64,000 nucleotides of DNA, from NCBI RefSeq assembly GCF_030580915.1, contig NZ_JAUQTA010000002.1:372001-436000 (forward strand), read 5' to 3'. Positions within the stretch are counted from its first letter, which is position 1, and the number at the start of each line of letters is the position of its first letter. The notes under the pieces are model-generated. The model made no database searches and had not been told where the DNA came from. It saw only the letters and a program-made list of their open reading frames with translations. This document shows, piece after piece, positions 665 to 32,658 of this stretch. The DNA is from Nocardioides jiangxiensis (GTDB lineage: Bacteria > Actinomycetota > Actinomycetes > Propionibacteriales > Nocardioidaceae). The translations under genes were made by a program, and so were the position numbers.

Positions 665-1060
665 ATGGCCTGCCGCATCGGGGAGATAGTCCTGGACTGC
701 CGTGACCCGGAGCTGCTCGCCCGGTTCTGGTGCGAGGTCCTCGACTTCGTGGTGCTGGGCACCGAGGACGACGGGAGCATCGAGATCGGCGCCCGCGACG
801 GCTTCGGCGGCAGCCAGCCGACGATCTTCCTGAGCCGCTGCGCGGAGCCCGAGCCGAGCAAGCCGCGGCTGCACCTCGACCTCAACGCCACCGACCGCGA
901 CCAGGCCGACGAGCTCGAGCGGCTGCTCGCGCTCGGGGCCCGGAGGGCCGACATCGGCCAGACCGGCGAGGAGTCGTGGCACGTCCTCCAGGACCCGGAG
1001 GGCAACGAGTTCTGCCTGCTCCGGCAGCGGATCGCACCGCTGCGCGCCGCGGGAGCCTAG
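665..1060 (+). CDS. VOC family protein (glyoxalase/bleomycin-resistance-like)
   Basis: A 131-residue single vicinal-oxygen-chelate domain. It starts IGEIVLDCRDPELLARFW, the usual first beta-alpha unit, and ends with WHVLQDPEGNEFCLL, the second metal-side strand typical of actinobacterial glyoxalase-like proteins. Substrate unknown; many such proteins are detoxification enzymes or uncharacterised. The frame is open much further upstream, but that stretch lies antisense to the dioxygenase and is not conserved-looking, so the start was placed at 665. It converges with the minus-strand MurD-like gene, overlapping its stop region by 4 bases. Confidence 0.85.
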   Translation: MACRIGEIVLDCRDPELLARFWCEVLDFVVLGTEDDGSIEIGARDGFGGSQPTIFLSRCAEPEPSKPRLHLDLNATDRDQADELERLLALGARRADIGQTGEESWHVLQDPEGNEFCLLRQRIAPLRAAGA

Positions 1061-2397
1061 GGGGCGATCAGCTCGCACAGGTGGCGAGCGCGGTCGGCGT
1101 AGTCCCGGTACTCGTCGAACGACGGGGCGCCGGGGGAGAGCAGCACGACGTTCGCGGGGTTGGCGACCGAGAGGCCCCAGGCGACGGCGTCCGCCATCCG
1201 GGTGAACTCGATCGCCGCGTGCGGCAGGTCGATCGCGTGCTCGCGGCCGAAGCGTGCCCCGGCCGGGCCGATCAGCAGGAGGTGCACGGGGGAGTGCCGC
1301 CCGCGGAGGTACGCCGCCAGGGGTGACAGGTCGAGCCCACGGTCGGCGCCGCCGAGGATCAGGGCGACCGGCTCGTCGGGGAAGACCGAGAGGGCCGCGA
1401 TCACGGCTTCGGGAGCCGTGGCCAGCGAGTCGTCGATCCACCGCCGGCCGTCGCGCGACGGCACGGTCTCCATGCGGTGGGCGAGTGGTGCGAAGGTGCG
1501 CACCGCGTCGAGCAGCTGGACCGCGCGTGGGTCTCCGGACGTGATGTCGAGCGCGACGGCGACCGCGAGGACGGCCAGGGCGAGGTTGTGGGCGTTGTGG
1601 ACGCCGACCAGGGGGAGGTCTCCCGGAGCGATGGCGCCGACGCCGTCCCAGATGAGGCCGGACTGCTCGCGCGCCCCGATCGCGCGCCCCGGGTCCGTGC
1701 GGACGGCGAGGGCCGCGTCGCCCGCGGCGAGGACTCCCTGGCTGGGCAGGTGGGTCAGGTGCAGGGTCGCGCCCTCGGGCAGCGCGGCGATGATCCGGCC
1801 GACCAGCGCGCGGTCGTGTCCGGGAGCGACCACGAGCGAGGCGCCCTGCGAGACCAGCCGCAGCTTGTCGCTGAAGTACCGCTCCTCGGACCCGTGCCAC
1901 GGCAGGTGCTCGGGGAAGAGGGAGGTCACGACCGCGACCCGCGGCGACACCGAGATCGACTGGGCCTGGTAGCTCGACACCTCCATGACGACGGTGCCGG
2001 TGGCGGCTGCGTCGAGCAGGGAGACGCCGATGTTGCCGCCCAGCGACACCTCCTCGCCGAGCGCGCCCAGGAGGTGCGCGATCGCCGAGGAGGTCGTCGA
2101 CTTTCCCTTGGTGCCGGTGACGCCGATGGCACGGTCGGCGTTCTCGGAGAGCCAGAGGTCGGTGTTGGAGGTGAAGGCGACGCCGGCCGTGGCCAGCTCG
2201 GCGTAGAGCGGCGACGACACGGGCACGCCGGGCGACTTCACGACCACCTCGGCGGCACGGAGGACGTCGGCATCGGCGTCGGACTCGGCCACCGTGGCCT
2301 CGATGCCGCGGGCGCTCAGCGCGGCCAGGGCCGCACGGCCCTCGAGGCCGAGCCCCCAGACGGCGACCCGGCGGCCCTCGAGGTCAGAGAACCTCAC
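1057..2397 (-). CDS. murD2: MurD-type ligase, probably MurD2 (UDP-MurNAc-L-Ala:L-Glu ligase)
   Basis: Complete three-domain Mur ligase of about 446 residues. Seen: N-terminal Rossmann motif VAVWGLGLEG, P-loop GTKGKSTT near residue 95, GGNIGVSLLD, EVSSYQAQS, the PEHLPWHG metal/base segment, the carbamylated-lysine region SDKLRL, and the C-terminal SPGAPSFDEY loop. The canonical D-Glu-binding motif DDSKATN reads DDSLATA here (near residues 322-328), so the lysine that contacts the amino-acid substrate in classical MurD is absent. The gene is coupled to the upstream MurL-like gene, overlapping it by 14 bases if the GTG at 2397 is the start (35 if 2418). From the Xanthomonas precedent this pair would add L-Glu and then invert it. 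L-Glu specificity is inferred. Confidence 0.85.
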   Translation of the reverse strand: MRFSDLEGRRVAVWGLGLEGRAALAALSARGIEATVAESDADADVLRAAEVVVKSPGVPVSSPLYAELATAGVAFTSNTDLWLSENADRAIGVTGTKGKSTTSSAIAHLLGALGEEVSLGGNIGVSLLDAAATGTVVMEVSSYQAQSISVSPRVAVVTSLFPEHLPWHGSEERYFSDKLRLVSQGASLVVAPGHDRALVGRIIAALPEGATLHLTHLPSQGVLAAGDAALAVRTDPGRAIGAREQSGLIWDGVGAIAPGDLPLVGVHNAHNLALAVLAVAVALDITSGDPRAVQLLDAVRTFAPLAHRMETVPSRDGRRWIDDSLATAPEAVIAALSVFPDEPVALILGGADRGLDLSPLAAYLRGRHSPVHLLLIGPAGARFGREHAIDLPHAAIEFTRMADAVAWGLSVANPANVVLLSPGAPSFDEYRDYADRARHLCELIAP

Positions 2398-3739
2398 GGG
2401 CGGCCTTCTCGAGGGCACCGGTCAGGAAGTGCTGGTCGGAGAAGGTGAAGAGGGCCTCCACCTCCGCGTCGGTCACCACCGCCTCGCGCAGCGCGCGGTC
2501 GGTGACGAACGGGTGGGTCGACCAGTCGGGGTGGTCCTGCAGCAGCGTGTACGCCGCGCGGCACTCGCTCGGCTCGCCCACGCACTCGAAGGGCTTGTGG
2601 CCGTCGCCGATCGCGAGCAGGTCCAGGAAGAGGTGACGCAGGGGCCCTCCGTCGACGCCGTCGGCGAAGAGGTCCTTGCCGAAGATCGCCAGCATCTGCG
2701 AGGCGGGCACGAAGGGGGAGAGCATCAGGAAGACGAAGGTGCACTTGGGGCACTCGCCACACCAGTTCCGCCGGCGCGAGGCGTCGAGGTGGAAAGCGCG
2801 GTTGCAGGAGGTGAAGACGTCCAGGTAGGGCAGCTGCGCGAAGCGGCGGACGATCGCCAGCTCGGTCAGGGGCCGCAGGAACGACACGTAGTCGACGCCG
2901 TACGGCGAGACCGCCTCGCGCAGCAGCCCCTCGAACCCGATGCCCTTGCTCCACTGGTGGTTGACCTCGACGCCGTGCCACTCGAGGTTGCCGTAGGACG
3001 AGGACGCCTCGTTGGCGAAGACGACCGTGTCCTGGCCGCCGCGCAGCGCCGTCAGGCAGGCGATGAGCGAGTTGACCGCCGTCACCGGGACGTGGCCGTT
3101 GTGGGCGCCCGCCTCGTTGAGGGCGAAGAGCGCCGGGTCGAGCTTGCGGGAGGCCTGAGCGATCGGCAGTCCCGATGCCTCGGCCGTGCGGGTGATCGGC
3201 TCGTAGGAGTTGACCGAGAAGAGCTCGACGTCGGCCATGCGGCGTACGGCCTCGAGGGTGACGATGGAGTCCTTGCCGCCGCCCACGGCGACCAGCGCCC
3301 GCGCGTGGGTGGGCGCGACCGCCGCGGCAGCCGGCGCCGGCCGCTCCGGAGCGGTGATGGTCGGGAAGAGCGCGTCGGGGAGGTCGTTGCGGAACGCGAA
3401 CTCGGCGAGCCCGCCCTTCACGACCTCGGCGAGGAAGTGGCGCTCGGCGGGATCGAGGCCACCGGCCACGGAGATCGTCGCGGGCACCAGGGCCTTGTAG
3501 TACGACGTGCCGGCCGCGAGCGCGAGCAGGCGGGCCAGTGCGCGGAAGCCGTCGCCGACCGGGACCGGGGACTCGACCGCAGGCAGCGTCACGACCTCGG
3601 TGAACGCCGCCACCGGCCCGACCGTGGAGACGTGGGCGATCCGGTAGTCGAGCTCGATCACCGCTCCGTCCGGCGAGATCCGCGGCTCGTCGACGTGGAA
3701 GACGAGCTCGGCGGGGGCGACGTTCAGCAGGTCGGACAC
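2384..3739 (-). CDS. murL: MurL-type epimerase (UDP-MurNAc-L-Ala-L-Glu epimerase)
   Basis: 451-residue cytoplasmic protein with a PP-loop-like ATP site VGGGKDSIVT (residues 152-161), a central SSSYGNLEWHG segment and a cysteine cluster, Cys312 plus NWCGECPKC at 327-333. This combination, with a MurD-like ligase directly downstream, matches MurL. MurL converts the terminal L-Glu of UDP-MurNAc-L-Ala-L-Glu to D-Glu in an ATP-dependent reaction, replacing glutamate racemase plus classical MurD. GTG start at 3739 with a TAGGAT box six bases upstream suggests a leaderless message carrying murL-murD2. Older annotation would call it a hypothetical or ExsB-like protein. Function is inferred from family and context. 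Confidence 0.82.
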   Translation of the reverse strand: MSDLLNVAPAELVFHVDEPRISPDGAVIELDYRIAHVSTVGPVAAFTEVVTLPAVESPVPVGDGFRALARLLALAAGTSYYKALVPATISVAGGLDPAERHFLAEVVKGGLAEFAFRNDLPDALFPTITAPERPAPAAAAVAPTHARALVAVGGGKDSIVTLEAVRRMADVELFSVNSYEPITRTAEASGLPIAQASRKLDPALFALNEAGAHNGHVPVTAVNSLIACLTALRGGQDTVVFANEASSSYGNLEWHGVEVNHQWSKGIGFEGLLREAVSPYGVDYVSFLRPLTELAIVRRFAQLPYLDVFTSCNRAFHLDASRRRNWCGECPKCTFVFLMLSPFVPASQMLAIFGKDLFADGVDGGPLRHLFLDLLAIGDGHKPFECVGEPSECRAAYTLLQDHPDWSTHPFVTDRALREAVVTDAEVEALFTFSDQHFLTGALEKAAREVL

Positions 3740-27876: not shown

Positions 27877-29294
27877 TCCCGATCCGCCTCTCCGAGATCG
27901 CGACCATCCTCGGGGGAGAGCTCCACGGGGACGACGCCGTCGTCACCGCGCCTGCCTTCGTCGACAGTCGCGCCGCCGAGCCGGGCGGGCTCTTCGTCGC
28001 GATCGCCGGCGAGCGCGTGGACGGCCATGCGTATGCCGGGGGAGCGGTCGCGGCAGGTGCCGCCGGCGTCCTCGGCTCCCGCCCGACCGATGCTCCGACC
28101 GTCGTGGTCGAGGACCCGGCCGTCGCCCTCGGCGTCCTGGCCCGTCACGTCCGCGACCAGCTCCCGGGGCTGACGGTGCTGGCCCTGACCGGAAGCCAGG
28201 GCAAGACCGGCACCAAGGACTTCCTCGCCCAGGTGCTCGCCGCCGCGGGGGAGACCGTCGCGACCGCGGGCAACCTCAACAACGAGCTCGGGGTACCCCT
28301 GACGGTGCTGCGCGCGACGACGTCGACGCGCTACCTCGTCGTCGAGATGGGTGCCCGCGGCATCGGCCACATCTCCTACCTGTGCGGCATCGCCCGCCCC
28401 GACGTCGCCGCCGTCATCAACGTCGGCACCGCCCACCTGGGCGAGTTCGGCACGCAGGCGGCCATCGCCCGGGCGAAGGGCGAGATCGTCGAGGCGCTGG
28501 CGCCAACCGGTGTCGCCGTGCTCAACGCCGACGACCCGCTGGTGGCGGCGATGGCGGCCCGCACGACGGCACGCGTGCTGGCGTGGGGTGCCGTGGCGGA
28601 CGAGCGCATCGAGCCGGCCGGCGTGCAGTTCGGCGCCATCGAGCTCGACGACCTGGGGCGGCCCGCCACGACGTTCCACTTCCGTGGCCGCGACGACCTG
28701 CCGTTCCAGGGAGCCGGCAAGGCCGCCGTCCAGCTGCTCGAGATCGGCCGGCACCAGGTGCTCAACGCCGCCGCGGCGGCCGCCATGGCACTGGCGGCGG
28801 GCGTGGCCCCGCAGACGGTCTTCACCGCGCTCGGTGAGGCCCGCAGCCTGTCCCGCTGGCGCATGGAGGTCCACGACCGCGCCGACGGCGTGACGGTCGT
28901 CAACGACGCCTACAACGCGAGCCCCGACGCGATGCGGGCTGCCCTCGACACCCTCGGCGGCATCGGCCAGCGGAGCGGCCGCCGCACGGTCGCGGTACTC
29001 GCGGAGATGCGCGAGCTCGGCGCCGAGACGGCGCGCATCCACGCCGAGATCGGCGCCCACGCGGCGAGGGCCGGCGTGGAGGTCCTCCTGGTGATCGGTG
29101 CCGACGCGGCACCGATGCTCGAGGGTGCGAGCAAGATCTCAGACTGGTCCGGCACGGCGGTGTCGGCTGTCGACCGGGCCGCTGCTCTGGCATGGTTGCG
29201 CGAGAACGTCGCCCCCGGCGACGTCGTACTGGTCAAGGCCTCACGGGGGGCCGCGCTGGAGCACGTGGCCGACGGGCTGCTGGAGAAGGAGTAA
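27873..29294 (+). CDS. murF: UDP-MurNAc-tripeptide-D-Ala-D-Ala ligase MurF
   Basis: 473 residues. Attaches D-Ala-D-Ala to the tripeptide precursor. N-terminal IRLSEIATILGGEL with DSRAAEPGGLFVAIAGERVDGH, P-loop LTGSQGKTGTKDF (variant GSQGKT with the lysine kept), NLNNELGVPLTVL, VVEMGARGIGHI, NVGTAHLGEFGT and C-terminal NDAYNASPDAMRAAL. All blocks of a functional ligase are present, unlike the MurD-like gene two positions downstream. GTG start overlaps the murE stop. Confidence 0.96.
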   Translation: MIPIRLSEIATILGGELHGDDAVVTAPAFVDSRAAEPGGLFVAIAGERVDGHAYAGGAVAAGAAGVLGSRPTDAPTVVVEDPAVALGVLARHVRDQLPGLTVLALTGSQGKTGTKDFLAQVLAAAGETVATAGNLNNELGVPLTVLRATTSTRYLVVEMGARGIGHISYLCGIARPDVAAVINVGTAHLGEFGTQAAIARAKGEIVEALAPTGVAVLNADDPLVAAMAARTTARVLAWGAVADERIEPAGVQFGAIELDDLGRPATTFHFRGRDDLPFQGAGKAAVQLLEIGRHQVLNAAAAAAMALAAGVAPQTVFTALGEARSLSRWRMEVHDRADGVTVVNDAYNASPDAMRAALDTLGGIGQRSGRRTVAVLAEMRELGAETARIHAEIGAHAARAGVEVLLVIGADAAPMLEGASKISDWSGTAVSAVDRAAALAWLRENVAPGDVVLVKASRGAALEHVADGLLEKE

Positions 29295-29296
29295 CG

Positions 29297-30376
29297 ATGA
29301 GGGCGATCCTGCTGAGCGGCGGCCTCTCGCTGATCCTCTCCCTGATCGGCACCCGCTACGCGATCCGCGTGCTCAGGGCCAAGGGCTACGGCCAGGAGAT
29401 CCGCGAGGAGGGTCCGGAGTCGCACAAGACCAAGCGCGGTACGCCGACCATGGGCGGCATCGTGATCATCTTCGCGACGCTGCTGGCCTATGGCCTCGCC
29501 AAGCTGCTGACCGGTGAGCTCCCGACCGCCTCGGCGCTCCTGCTGCTCTTCCTCTTCGCGGGGTGCGGCCTCGTCGGCTTCCTCGACGACTTCATCAAGA
29601 TCTACCGGCAGCGCAACCTCGGCCTGCGCAGCCGCGCCAAGATGATCGGCCAGACCTTCATCGCACTCGTCTTCGGCGGCGTCGCCATCTCTCCGTGGAT
29701 GGAGGACAAGGACGGCATCCGCCCCGCGTCGCTCCACATCTCCCTGCTGCGCGACTGGACCGCCTGGACCATCCCGGCGGTGGTCGTGATGGCGCTGATC
29801 TGGGTGATCGTGACCGGCACGAGCAACGCGGTGAACCTCACCGACGGCCTCGACGGCCTCGCTGCCGGCGCCTCGGTCATGGTCTTCGGCGCCTACACGC
29901 TGATCAACATCTGGCAGTCCAACCAGTCCTGCTTCTCCGAGCTCCGCACCCCGGGGCCGAACTGCTACGACGTGCGCGACCCGCTCGACCTGGCGATCGT
30001 CGCCGCCGCGATCACCGGCGCGACGTTCGGCTTCCTGTGGTGGAACGCCTCGCCCGCGCAGATCTTCATGGGCGACACCGGTTCGCTCGCCCTGGGCGGC
30101 GGCCTGGCCGGCCTGGCGATCCTGACCCGCACGGAGCTGCTGCTCCTCATCCTCGGTGGTCTCTTCGTCATGGAGACGCTCTCGGTGATGATGCAGGTCT
30201 CCTACTTCAAGGCGACCAAGGGCAAGCGGATCTTCCGGATGGCGCCCATCCACCACCACTTCGAGATGCTCGGCTGGGAGCAGGTCACGGTCGTGATCCG
30301 GTTCTGGATCATCACCGGCCTGCTGGTCGCCGGAGGGATGGGCCTCTTCTACGCGGAGTGGGTCGCCGGTGCCTGA
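29297..30376 (+). CDS. mraY: phospho-MurNAc-pentapeptide transferase MraY
   Basis: 359-residue polytopic membrane enzyme, about ten spans. It transfers phospho-MurNAc-pentapeptide to undecaprenyl phosphate, giving lipid I. Catalytic signatures: KRGTPTMGGIVII, FLDDFIKI (DD pair), NAVNLTDGLDGLAAG, FMGDTGSLALGG and the HHHFEMLGWEQ motif near the C terminus. ATG at 29297 follows a GGAGTAA site that overlaps the murF stop. Its end overlaps the next gene by eight bases. Confidence 0.97.
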   Translation: MRAILLSGGLSLILSLIGTRYAIRVLRAKGYGQEIREEGPESHKTKRGTPTMGGIVIIFATLLAYGLAKLLTGELPTASALLLLFLFAGCGLVGFLDDFIKIYRQRNLGLRSRAKMIGQTFIALVFGGVAISPWMEDKDGIRPASLHISLLRDWTAWTIPAVVVMALIWVIVTGTSNAVNLTDGLDGLAAGASVMVFGAYTLINIWQSNQSCFSELRTPGPNCYDVRDPLDLAIVAAAITGATFGFLWWNASPAQIFMGDTGSLALGGGLAGLAILTRTELLLLILGGLFVMETLSVMMQVSYFKATKGKRIFRMAPIHHHFEMLGWEQVTVVIRFWIITGLLVAGGMGLFYAEWVAGA

Positions 30377-31382
30377 CGCCCGCGACGTCATGGCCCTGGA
30401 CCGCTCGGGGCCGTGGGAAGGCGTGCGCGTCGTCGTCGCCGGCTTCGGCCGCGCGGGCTTCGCTGCCACCGACAACCTGCTCCACCTCGGCGCGACCGTG
30501 ACGGCGCGGGCGCTGCCGCTCACCGACGACGACCCGTCCGAGGCCGACCAGGCCGAGAAGGCCGAGCTCCTCGAGGTGCTGGGCGCGCGCGTCGAGCTGC
30601 TGCCCGACGCGCTCGCCTCGCTCCCCGACGACGTCGACCTGGTCATCGCCTCGCCTGAGCACCGTGACACACCGCTGGTGGACCAGGCGCGCCTGCGCGG
30701 CGTGCCGGTCTGGGGCGAGGTCGAGCTGGCCTGGCGCCTGCGGGACACCGCCGCCGGCAGTCGCCCGGCTCCGTGGCTGGTCGTCGCGGGCAGCGCGGGC
30801 CAGACCGAGGTGGCGCTCCTCGTCGAGCAGATCCTGCTCGCAGCGGGGCAGCGGCCGGCGGTGGCCGGGCTCGCGGGCCTGCCCCTCGTCGAGGCGGTCA
30901 TGGACCCCGAGCCGTACGACGCCCTCGTCGTCGCGCTCGACGACGCGCAGCTCGCCGGCGTCCGCTCGATGAGCGCGCTCGCTGCCGCCGTCCTGGACAG
31001 CTCGGAGGGTGACGTGGGGTCGGCGGCCTCGCGGGCCGCGGCGTACGAGCACGTGCAGGAGGCCTGCATCTACGTGGCGGCGGACGCGACGACGGAGGAG
31101 CTGGTCCGGGAGGCCGACGTGGTCGAGGGCGCGCGCGCCATCGGCGTCACGCTCGGCATGCCGGGGGTCGGCATGCTCGGTGTGGTCGAGGACCTGCTCG
31201 TGGAGCGGGCGTTCCTGCCGCAGCGCTCCACCTCCGCCGCCGAGCTCACCTCTCTCGAGGAGCTCGGCACCGACGACACCGTGACCGTCACCCGCTCCCT
31301 GGTCGCCTCTGCGCTCGCCCTCGCCGCGGGCGCGACGCCGGCTGCGGTGCGTGACGGACTTCGCAACGCGCGACACGCGTGA
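30369..31382 (+). CDS. degenerate MurD homologue in the murD position (predicted pseudoenzyme)
   Basis: 337 residues aligning with domains 1 and 2 of actinobacterial MurD: VVVAGFGRAGFAA, PVWGEVELAWRLR, and a late VEGARAIGVTLGMPG-LGVVEDLLVERAF block. The P-loop reads GSAGQTEV (residues 141-148) where MurD has GTNGKTT, so the ATP lysine is gone. The SSYQL and DHLDWHG metal segments are replaced (VALDDAQL, DSSEGDVG) and no carbamyl-lysine remains. The chain stops at AAVRDGLRNARHA, exactly where domain 3 should begin. The frame is intact with normal codon use and overlaps mraY by 8 bases, so it seems retained as protein. GTG 30369 used; ATG 30390 is possible. Ligase activity is very unlikely. Confidence 0.85.
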   Translation: MPDARDVMALDRSGPWEGVRVVVAGFGRAGFAATDNLLHLGATVTARALPLTDDDPSEADQAEKAELLEVLGARVELLPDALASLPDDVDLVIASPEHRDTPLVDQARLRGVPVWGEVELAWRLRDTAAGSRPAPWLVVAGSAGQTEVALLVEQILLAAGQRPAVAGLAGLPLVEAVMDPEPYDALVVALDDAQLAGVRSMSALAAAVLDSSEGDVGSAASRAAAYEHVQEACIYVAADATTEELVREADVVEGARAIGVTLGMPGVGMLGVVEDLLVERAFLPQRSTSAAELTSLEELGTDDTVTVTRSLVASALALAAGATPAAVRDGLRNARHA

Positions 31383-31428
31383 GCGCCTACCGCGGACACG
31401 CCGAGGCCGCGGGGGAGGATGGTGCGCG

Positions 31429-32658
31429 ATGACCACTGCCACGCCTGACGAGATCCGCGAGCGACCGCGGGGTCTCGCTGCGCTCAAGGAGGCGCTCGAG
31501 CGCCCCCTGACGCCGTACTACCTGCTGCTCGGGTGCACGGCACTCCTGCTGACGCTCGGCCTGCTCATGGTGCTCAGCGCCTCGAGCGTCTCCTCCTACG
31601 AGGACAGCCGGAACTCCTACGCCGTGGTCGAGCGCCAGCTGATCTGGGTGGTCCTGGGCGTGCCGGCGGCCTGGCTGGTCGCGCGGCTGCCGCAGCGCAC
31701 GCTGCGCAACCTCTCCACGCTGGGGCTGCTGGGCTCGATGGTGCTGCTCGCGGCCACGTTGACCCCGCTCGGCGTCACGCGCAACCACCAGACCAACTGG
31801 CTCGGCGTCGGCCCGTTCGTCATCCAGCCCTCGGAGTTCGCCAAGCTCGCCGTCATCCTCTGGGCGGCGCACATCTACGCCAACAAGGAGCGTCGTCTCG
31901 GCGAGCTGCAGCACATCATCGTGCCGGTCGTCCCCGGCGTCGGTGCGGTCACCGCGCTGATCCTCCTGCAGCGTGACCTCGGCACCGCCCTCGTGCTCTT
32001 CGCGATCACGCTGAGCCTGCTCTGGGTCGTCGGCGCCCCGGCCAAGCTGTTCACGCTCTCGGCCTCGGTGATCGCCGTCGGAGCGTTCTGGCTGGCCACG
32101 ACCAGCGCGGAGCGTCGCCAGCGCCTGCTCAGCTTCACCGACCCGTTCAAGGACTACCACGACTCGGGCTGGCAGGCAGCGCACGGCCTGCTCGCGCTCT
32201 CGTCGGGCGGACTCTTCGGCAAGGGCATCGGCGCGTCCCAGCAGAAGTGGGGCACGCTGCCCGAGTCCTACACCGACTACATCTTCGCCGTGCTCGGCGA
32301 GGAGCTGGGCCTGGTCGGCACGGTCTTCGTGATCGGCCTCTTCCTCACCATCGCGTGGGCGGCGGTCCGCATCGCCACCCAGACGCGCGACCCGTTCGTC
32401 CGCTACGTCTCCTTCGGCGTCATGGTGTGGCTCCTCGGCCAGATGATCGTCAACGTCGGCATGGTGCTCTCGCTCCTGCCGGTCATCGGCATCCCGCTCC
32501 CGCTCGTCTCGTACGGCGGATCCGCGCTGCTGCCCTCGCTCATCGCCCTCGGCATCCTGATCGGGTTCGCCCGCCGCGAGCCGGAGGCGGCCGCCGCGCT
32601 CGCCGCCCGCAAGCGCAACCGTCCCGCCCGTCCCGCACAGCAGTCCCGAGGTCTCTGA
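31429..32658 (+). CDS. ftsW: septal peptidoglycan glycosyltransferase FtsW (SEDS family)
   Basis: 409-residue polytopic SEDS protein polymerising lipid II at the septum with FtsI. About ten spans. Signatures: MVLSASSVSSYE, NWLGVGPFVIQPSEFAKLAVILW (near the catalytic region), QRDLGTALVL, the extracellular SFTDPFKDYHDSGWQ, GLFGKGIGASQQKWGTLPESYTDYIFAVLGEELG, and GIPLPLVSYGGSALL. ATG at 31429; a 46-base gap separates it from the MurD-like gene, the longest gap in this stretch of the operon. Confidence 0.96.
   Translation: MTTATPDEIRERPRGLAALKEALERPLTPYYLLLGCTALLLTLGLLMVLSASSVSSYEDSRNSYAVVERQLIWVVLGVPAAWLVARLPQRTLRNLSTLGLLGSMVLLAATLTPLGVTRNHQTNWLGVGPFVIQPSEFAKLAVILWAAHIYANKERRLGELQHIIVPVVPGVGAVTALILLQRDLGTALVLFAITLSLLWVVGAPAKLFTLSASVIAVGAFWLATTSAERRQRLLSFTDPFKDYHDSGWQAAHGLLALSSGGLFGKGIGASQQKWGTLPESYTDYIFAVLGEELGLVGTVFVIGLFLTIAWAAVRIATQTRDPFVRYVSFGVMVWLLGQMIVNVGMVLSLLPVIGIPLPLVSYGGSALLPSLIALGILIGFARREPEAAAALAARKRNRPARPAQQSRGL

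Follow-up and report, generated by a model that had tools for sequence, protein, structure and literature searches.

In the stretch of Nocardioides jiangxiensis DNA analyzed here (64,000 nucleotides, hereafter the window), the murD slot between mraY and ftsW encodes a protein that, judging from its sequence, is rightly described as a MurD-derived pseudoenzyme (Table 1). Comparable truncated proteins, consisting of MurD domains 1-2, occur in other members of the genus, and in the truncated clades these two domains are under purifying selection as strong as that acting upon active MurD. Our findings suggest that MurD had a second, non-catalytic job in the cell-wall or division machinery.

Table 1. 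Features of the window that are discussed in the text, numbered from the first nucleotide of the window.
Feature	Position	Strand	Remarks
MurD2	1057..2418	-	TIGR01087, 277.7 bits; E182, R348, P414, F416
MurL homologue	2384..3739	-	NF041275, 346.6 bits, E 1.6e-103; the cut-off of 700, that of a Xanthomonadales model, is not reached
mraY	29291..30376	+	upstream neighbour of the slot, 8-base overlap; tree marker together with ftsW
MurD domain 1-2 pseudoenzyme (slot gene), 337 aa	30369..31382	+	murD slot between mraY and ftsW; MurD fold, P-loop GSAGQTE
CGACACGC box, contains GACAC (WhiA motif)	31371..31378	+	overlaps the slot gene at its final codons (R-H-A)
GAGGAT, -10-like partner of the CGACACGC box	31415..31420	+	36-nt spacer; ftsW ATG 8 nt downstream
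ftsW	31429..32658	+	downstream neighbour of the slot; likely start ATG at 31429, picked by eye

The presence of a MurD pseudoenzyme in the murD slot, with domain 3 deleted at a clean boundary, had been proposed in an earlier note on this DNA, and both observations are confirmed. The AF2 model of the slot protein is a high-confidence MurD domain 1+2 fold (pLDDT 93.4), whereas domain 3 is absent, such that the three-domain architecture of MurD is not attained, and the score against the curated MurD model TIGR01087 (83.3 bits) falls below its cut-off of 211.95. In the alignment, Q occupies the column of the P-loop lysine and R that of the carbamylated lysine. Among the 40 alignment rows, which partly overlap, K198 is lost from all 40 and G73 of the sugar-phosphate loop is acidic in 25, while the P-loop lysine is retained in two of the 20 truncated genomes (G223 and G258). 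Truncated frames end at most 10 residues from the VRDGL-type motif that closes domain 2, or 15 residues in G258. A profile search of the window slot protein yielded no MurT model among the matches listed, and in the open-licence literature we found no report of a Mur ligase pseudoenzyme or of a truncated MurD in Nocardioides peptidoglycan.

The same note had assumed a relocated ligase, which turned out otherwise: the sole ligase exceeding the MurD cut-off in the genome of the window, located at 1057-2418 (-), is MurD2, another enzyme, which adjoins MurL and carries all four L-Glu-specific residues. According to the available text of PMC8788868, E, R, P, and F at these four positions distinguish the L-Glu-using MurD2 from MurD, and MurD2/MurL constitute an alternative route to D-Glu stem peptides (Feng et al., as reviewed there). 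The search for D-Glu formation in this genome (G000) was one for MurI only (TIGR00067) and gave no match. Likewise, MurI exceeds its cut-off in none of the 25 genomes with a true MurL (defined below), seven of which have sub-cut-off matches of 21-29 bits vs. a cut-off of 146.65, and it is present in all three genomes with a weak MurL match and all seven MurL-less relatives searched. Thus, gene content indicates that the MurD2/MurL pathway has replaced the MurD route in the genome of the window, and it would be due to this switch, with MurD2 and MurL gained and MurI gone, that MurD became dispensable. In three genomes, G223, G076, and G158 (L060-L062), a divergent MurL of 43-46% identity adjoins a MurD2-like frame of ~36%, which suggests that the pathway may have been acquired more than once in the genus. 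In G219 (L059, L066), a 99% complete genome with an open slot gene, MurL is split over two overlapping frames, due to either a sequencing error or a real frameshift.

When examining the distribution of these genes among 215 genomes of the genus (191 of good quality), MurL was matched in 28. Three of these matches are weak and were not counted as true, because their identity is 30-34%, no MurD2 is found at E 1e-60, and MurI is kept. This leaves 25 true MurL genomes, 24 of good quality. A MurD2 search at E 1e-60 finds 20 of the 25, and each of the five missed (G182, G194, G223, G158, and G076) has a MurD2-like frame beside MurL. The domain-3 query matches 191 of the 215 genomes; among those of good quality, domain 3 is present in 171/191 and absent from 20 (19 according to the query, plus G338). 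MurL is encoded by all 20 good-quality genomes without MurD domain 3, whereas none of the 167 without a true MurL (164 without any match and the three with weak ones) lacks the domain. The four remaining MurL genomes, G220, G242, G245, and G281, keep a complete MurD. The resulting table (20, 4, 0, 167) gives a Fisher p of 1.7e-23, and a comparison of independent pairs on a 54-genome tree finds the traits together eight times and against each other zero times, with one tie (p 0.0078). Below the quality filter are four more genomes without a domain-3 match: G295, which was left out of the counts (70% complete, with a frame-broken slot and a broken MurL), and three others, which have no good MurL match either among the matches listed. 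Domain 3 is kept in 76 of 80 named loci and likewise in Pimelobacter simplex ATCC 6946.

The 54-genome tree was built from mraY and partial ftsW; its 30 genomes without a true MurL are not a random sample, but rather the 27 top scorers of the slot query and the three weak-MurL genomes. On this tree, the 20 truncated slots require 10 changes, of which 8 are forced by well supported branches. A single origin of the truncation was rejected on the flanking genes, as placing the truncated genomes in one clade lowers the log-likelihood by 775 (AU p 4.8e-8). The tree of the slot itself, which has long branches, needs 4 changes, 2 of them forced. It is safe to state that domain 3 was lost several times independently, and the most likely number of losses is about eight to ten.

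Does the shortened gene survive as a protein, or is it a dead gene whose frame, in a genome of high GC content, merely happens to be open still, its loss pending? The remaining domain 1-2 frame is free of internal stops in all 20 truncated genomes, since the TGA flagged in the G214 match is the gene's own stop, beyond which the match extends a few codons. The earlier note had taken an intact frame as a sign of retention and had expected decay to appear as frameshifts in relatives or as a dN/dS near 1. Its expectation of selection on the protein is borne out on both counts, the one broken slot being that of the incomplete G295 assembly, although an intact frame counts for little here, given how easily GC-rich DNA keeps frames open. 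Codon substitution is the more informative measure. M0 fits to domains 1-2 yield an omega of 0.056, 0.035, and 0.043 in truncated clades T1-T3, one of which holds the window gene, vs. 0.041, 0.028, 0.040, and 0.038 in four full-length clades; fixing omega at 1 in T1-T3 is worse by >200 log units at kappa 1-3. A further clade, T4, also gives 0.035, but it includes one full-length member and was not counted as truncated. Because synonymous sites are near saturation, absolute omega values are uncertain, and the solid result is the comparison between clades. Nei-Gojobori ratios are 0.11-0.43 for truncated pairs and 0.08-0.26 for full-length pairs. Differences at codon positions 1, 2, and 3 number 193/165/690 in seven truncated pairs (2279 codons) and 186/134/690 in nine full-length pairs (2993 codons), with some pairs sharing genomes; the ratio of positions 1+2 to position 3 is 0.52 vs. 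0.46, which indicates that truncated forms evolve somewhat faster. Among the 20 truncated genomes, 77 positions are invariant, and the domain 2 block 241-300 is conserved nearly as in active MurD. Constraint has been lifted near the active site (e.g. residues 136-165 and 181-225) and largely retained elsewhere. The slot of G258 carries 22 private changes, whereas its relatives have 5 and 3, and neither mraY nor ftsW shows a matching excess. This excess in the slot is relaxation at the switch, and the low omega found in truncated clades of greater age points to constraint having returned afterwards. Both the acceleration in G258 and the complete absence of the slot gene from nine genomes of other families are as one would expect of slow decay. 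Nevertheless, substitutions fall mostly at third positions and three clades that are truncated throughout have the omega of active MurD, from which it follows that the slot gene is not dying; we consider slow decay very unlikely.

Outside of the genus, the outcome of the pathway switch is different. MurL was found at E 1e-60 in 20 of the 393 actinomycete genomes searched, 16 of them outside the genus, and in 13 of these 16 no domain 1-2 was seen, while the other three keep a full MurD. In nine, mraY is followed by ftsW without murD, with ~165-570 nt between the matches. Only a C-terminal piece of domain 3 is left in two of the 16, and another two have no murD, slot, or ftsW match within 1.5 kb after mraY. 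In G514 and G588 (L147, L148), an open 113-codon frame behind mraY encodes the C-terminal part of domain 3 and nothing else of murD, which is opposite to what is seen in Nocardioides. In G490 and G366 (L140, L144), mraY is followed not by murD or ftsW, but by an open frame of ~290-300 codons that resembles a YfiH/laccase-domain protein by eye. These searches had limited reach, as the MurD query gave no match at E 1e-12 in two of the 16, not even to MurD2, and a very divergent remnant could still be encoded elsewhere in such genomes. The 13 genomes rule out a general need for domains 1-2 in MurL bacteria, and due to them we regard the retention of domains 1-2 as lineage-specific and any structural role of these domains as less than universal. 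Keeping domains 1-2 would therefore be a trait of the genus, as far as sampled.

A separate possibility is that the DNA of the slot is kept rather than the protein, either because it couples the translation of ftsW to that of mraY or because it contains an ftsW promoter. A promoter-like element does exist. The two-part pattern CGACACGC-N34-36-GAGACT type, which was drawn from the family, occurs once in the window (31371-31420; 0.07 expected), while the CGACACGC 8-mer by itself shows no enrichment in the window (9 found vs. 14.6 expected). In all 34 full-length slots of the tree set, CGACACGC lies at the same domain-3 site, 270-279 nt past the domain-2 motif, where it forms the codons CGA-CAC-GCN, even though CGA accounts for 3.5% of the arginine codons in the remainder of these genes. 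Exactly 34 nt after the box, 33/34 of these slots and 75/80 named loci have GAGACT or a variant close to it. After the loss of domain 3, CGACACGC still precedes ftsW in 19/20 truncated slots (0.85 expected from shuffles), G108 being the one without the box, and 16 of the 19 have the partner box at 34-36 nt; the exceptions are G211, with a spacer of 50, and both G194 and G182, which have GAGACTTG, outside the pattern. By eye, the box pair is also apparent in the mraY-ftsW gap of murD-less genomes from other families, with a spacer of 33-34 in five and as a variant pair with a spacer of 40 in three; it was not seen by eye in G370, nor in G366 and G490, in which ftsW does not come next to mraY. 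WhiA exceeds its cut-off in all 24 genomes searched. In S. venezuelae, ftsW is activated by WhiA bound to GACAC 269 bp upstream of the gene, which the authors of PMC3781837 read as an ftsW-specific promoter; the word murD does not occur in the main text of that paper. By analogy, the conserved element is a putative WhiA-bound ftsW promoter; a search of the open-licence literature for "ftsW promoter" found no mention among the matches listed. The survival of the element favors retention of the DNA, but the element is found where the truncated gene ends or farther on, outside domains 1-2, nine genomes dispense with murD at the mraY-ftsW junction altogether, and coupling would leave the amino acids unconstrained. 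Since gene loss is tolerated and retention is, as far as sampled, genus-specific, the evidence favors a lineage-specific function of the protein over translational coupling, and we give little credence to retention of the DNA for its own sake.

If the protein is what matters, its partner could be MurD2 or MurL rather than the MraY-FtsW side, in a heteromer or as an allosteric partner. Pseudoenzyme-enzyme pairs are a known kind, and among good-quality genomes domain 3 has been lost only with MurL. However, MurD2 and MurL lie ~27 kb from the slot gene on the opposite strand, and domains 1-2 were not seen in 13 of the 16 MurL genomes from other genera. Furthermore, truncated forms conserve largely the same domain 1-2 positions as full-length MurD, so there is no sign of a newly conserved interface. 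The earlier note had also entertained an allosteric subunit, in favor of which nothing was found in this analysis, and we regard a MurD2/MurL subunit as rather unlikely. New chemistry or ligand sensing is a further candidate function, with the Rossmann-like domain 1 binding another nucleotide or a precursor and reporting on it. The GFGRAG segment is a GxGxxG turn, the window protein has weak dehydrogenase-type Pfam matches, and in a relative (P0008) such matches narrowly exceed the cut-offs (AlaDh_PNT_C, 26.8 vs. 23; NAD_binding_7, 22.4 vs. 22.1). The matches of the window protein itself are below cut-off and full-length MurDs share the same turn (GFGVSG), such that NAD-type binding was judged unlikely. 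A precursor sensor is less likely as well, because the nucleotide and sugar-phosphate sites are both lost, the latter as the acidic loop described above; overall, a sensory or new chemical role appears highly improbable.

We modestly favor the explanation that the MurD2/MurL swap freed MurD from catalysis and that domains 1-2 were kept as a non-catalytic binding partner. As gene content indicates, the lineage gained both MurD2 and MurL, while MurI was lost. MurD catalysis would then have been dispensable, allowing the deletion of domain 3 and the decay of the ATP, sugar-phosphate, and carbamyl-lysine sites evident in the alignments, while domains 1-2 would have been held by the purifying selection measured in the truncated clades. 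Presumably, they dock into the cytoplasmic Mur/division assembly, with MraY, MurG, FtsW, SepF, or Wag31 as candidate partners, and this structural role may already have been borne by MurD before catalysis was lost. The conserved and putative ftsW promoter inside the domain-3 coding sequence would have been spared, and in its present position it borders on the end of the truncated gene or overlaps it. Judging from these comparisons, the role of the slot protein in the Mur/division complex would be non-catalytic and probably one of scaffolding. Studies of other species are partly in agreement. In M. tuberculosis, fragment-complementation assays described in the accessible portion of PMC3605390 detected contacts of the Mur synthetases, including MurD, with FtsZ, FtsW, FtsQ, Wag31, and the SepF orthologue, and of MurD with MurI; no interaction of the Mur synthetases with one another was detected, which counts against our explanation. 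In T. maritima, MurG and MreB are bound by MurD/MurE/MurF, according to the part of PMC6420597 that was available. The four MurL genomes of the genus that still encode a full MurD also count against the overall explanation. A broader and more tentative proposal, to which we assign slightly less than even weight, is that actinobacterial MurD has two functions, as a ligase and, through domains 1-2, as a structural component of a division/wall-synthesis complex; catalysis would have been shed on some eight to ten occasions within a single genus, with the structural half kept and the ftsW promoter within the discarded domain spared.

Since Mur ligases are essential, it is difficult to test whether they have non-catalytic roles in a multi-enzyme complex. 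In the environmental species described here, the ligase function has been lost in evolution whereas the remainder of the protein persists, which would make the structural role testable by simple deletion. The slot is also a case in which the overlap between an essential coding sequence and a likely cell-division promoter is tight enough for the promoter to have outlasted the domain. In addition, the MurD2/MurL route and MurI loss are placed in Nocardioides as recurrent events.

Several known systems invite comparison. As in the described MurD2/MurL pathway, the window has adjacent MurD2 and MurL and its genome is without a MurI match; a truncated MurD leftover is unmentioned in the available text of the review, and Nocardioides is absent from its main text (PMC8788868). 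With the WhiA-activated ftsW promoter of S. venezuelae, the genomes examined here have in common the presence of whiA as well as a GACAC box ahead of ftsW, but the element described here is known by conservation only, and its fixed spacing to a GAGACT-type box and its survival after domain-3 loss are features found here and not in the available text of PMC3781837. The slot protein shares with the MurD ligase its domain 1-2 fold, its gene position between mraY and ftsW, and its descent, whereas it lacks domain 3, the P-loop lysine, and the carbamylated lysine, and scores under the family cut-off. A further parallel is MurT of the lipid II amidase MurT/GatD, which is likewise derived from a Mur ligase and acts together with another partner; unlike the slot protein, MurT is an active, ATP-using enzyme.
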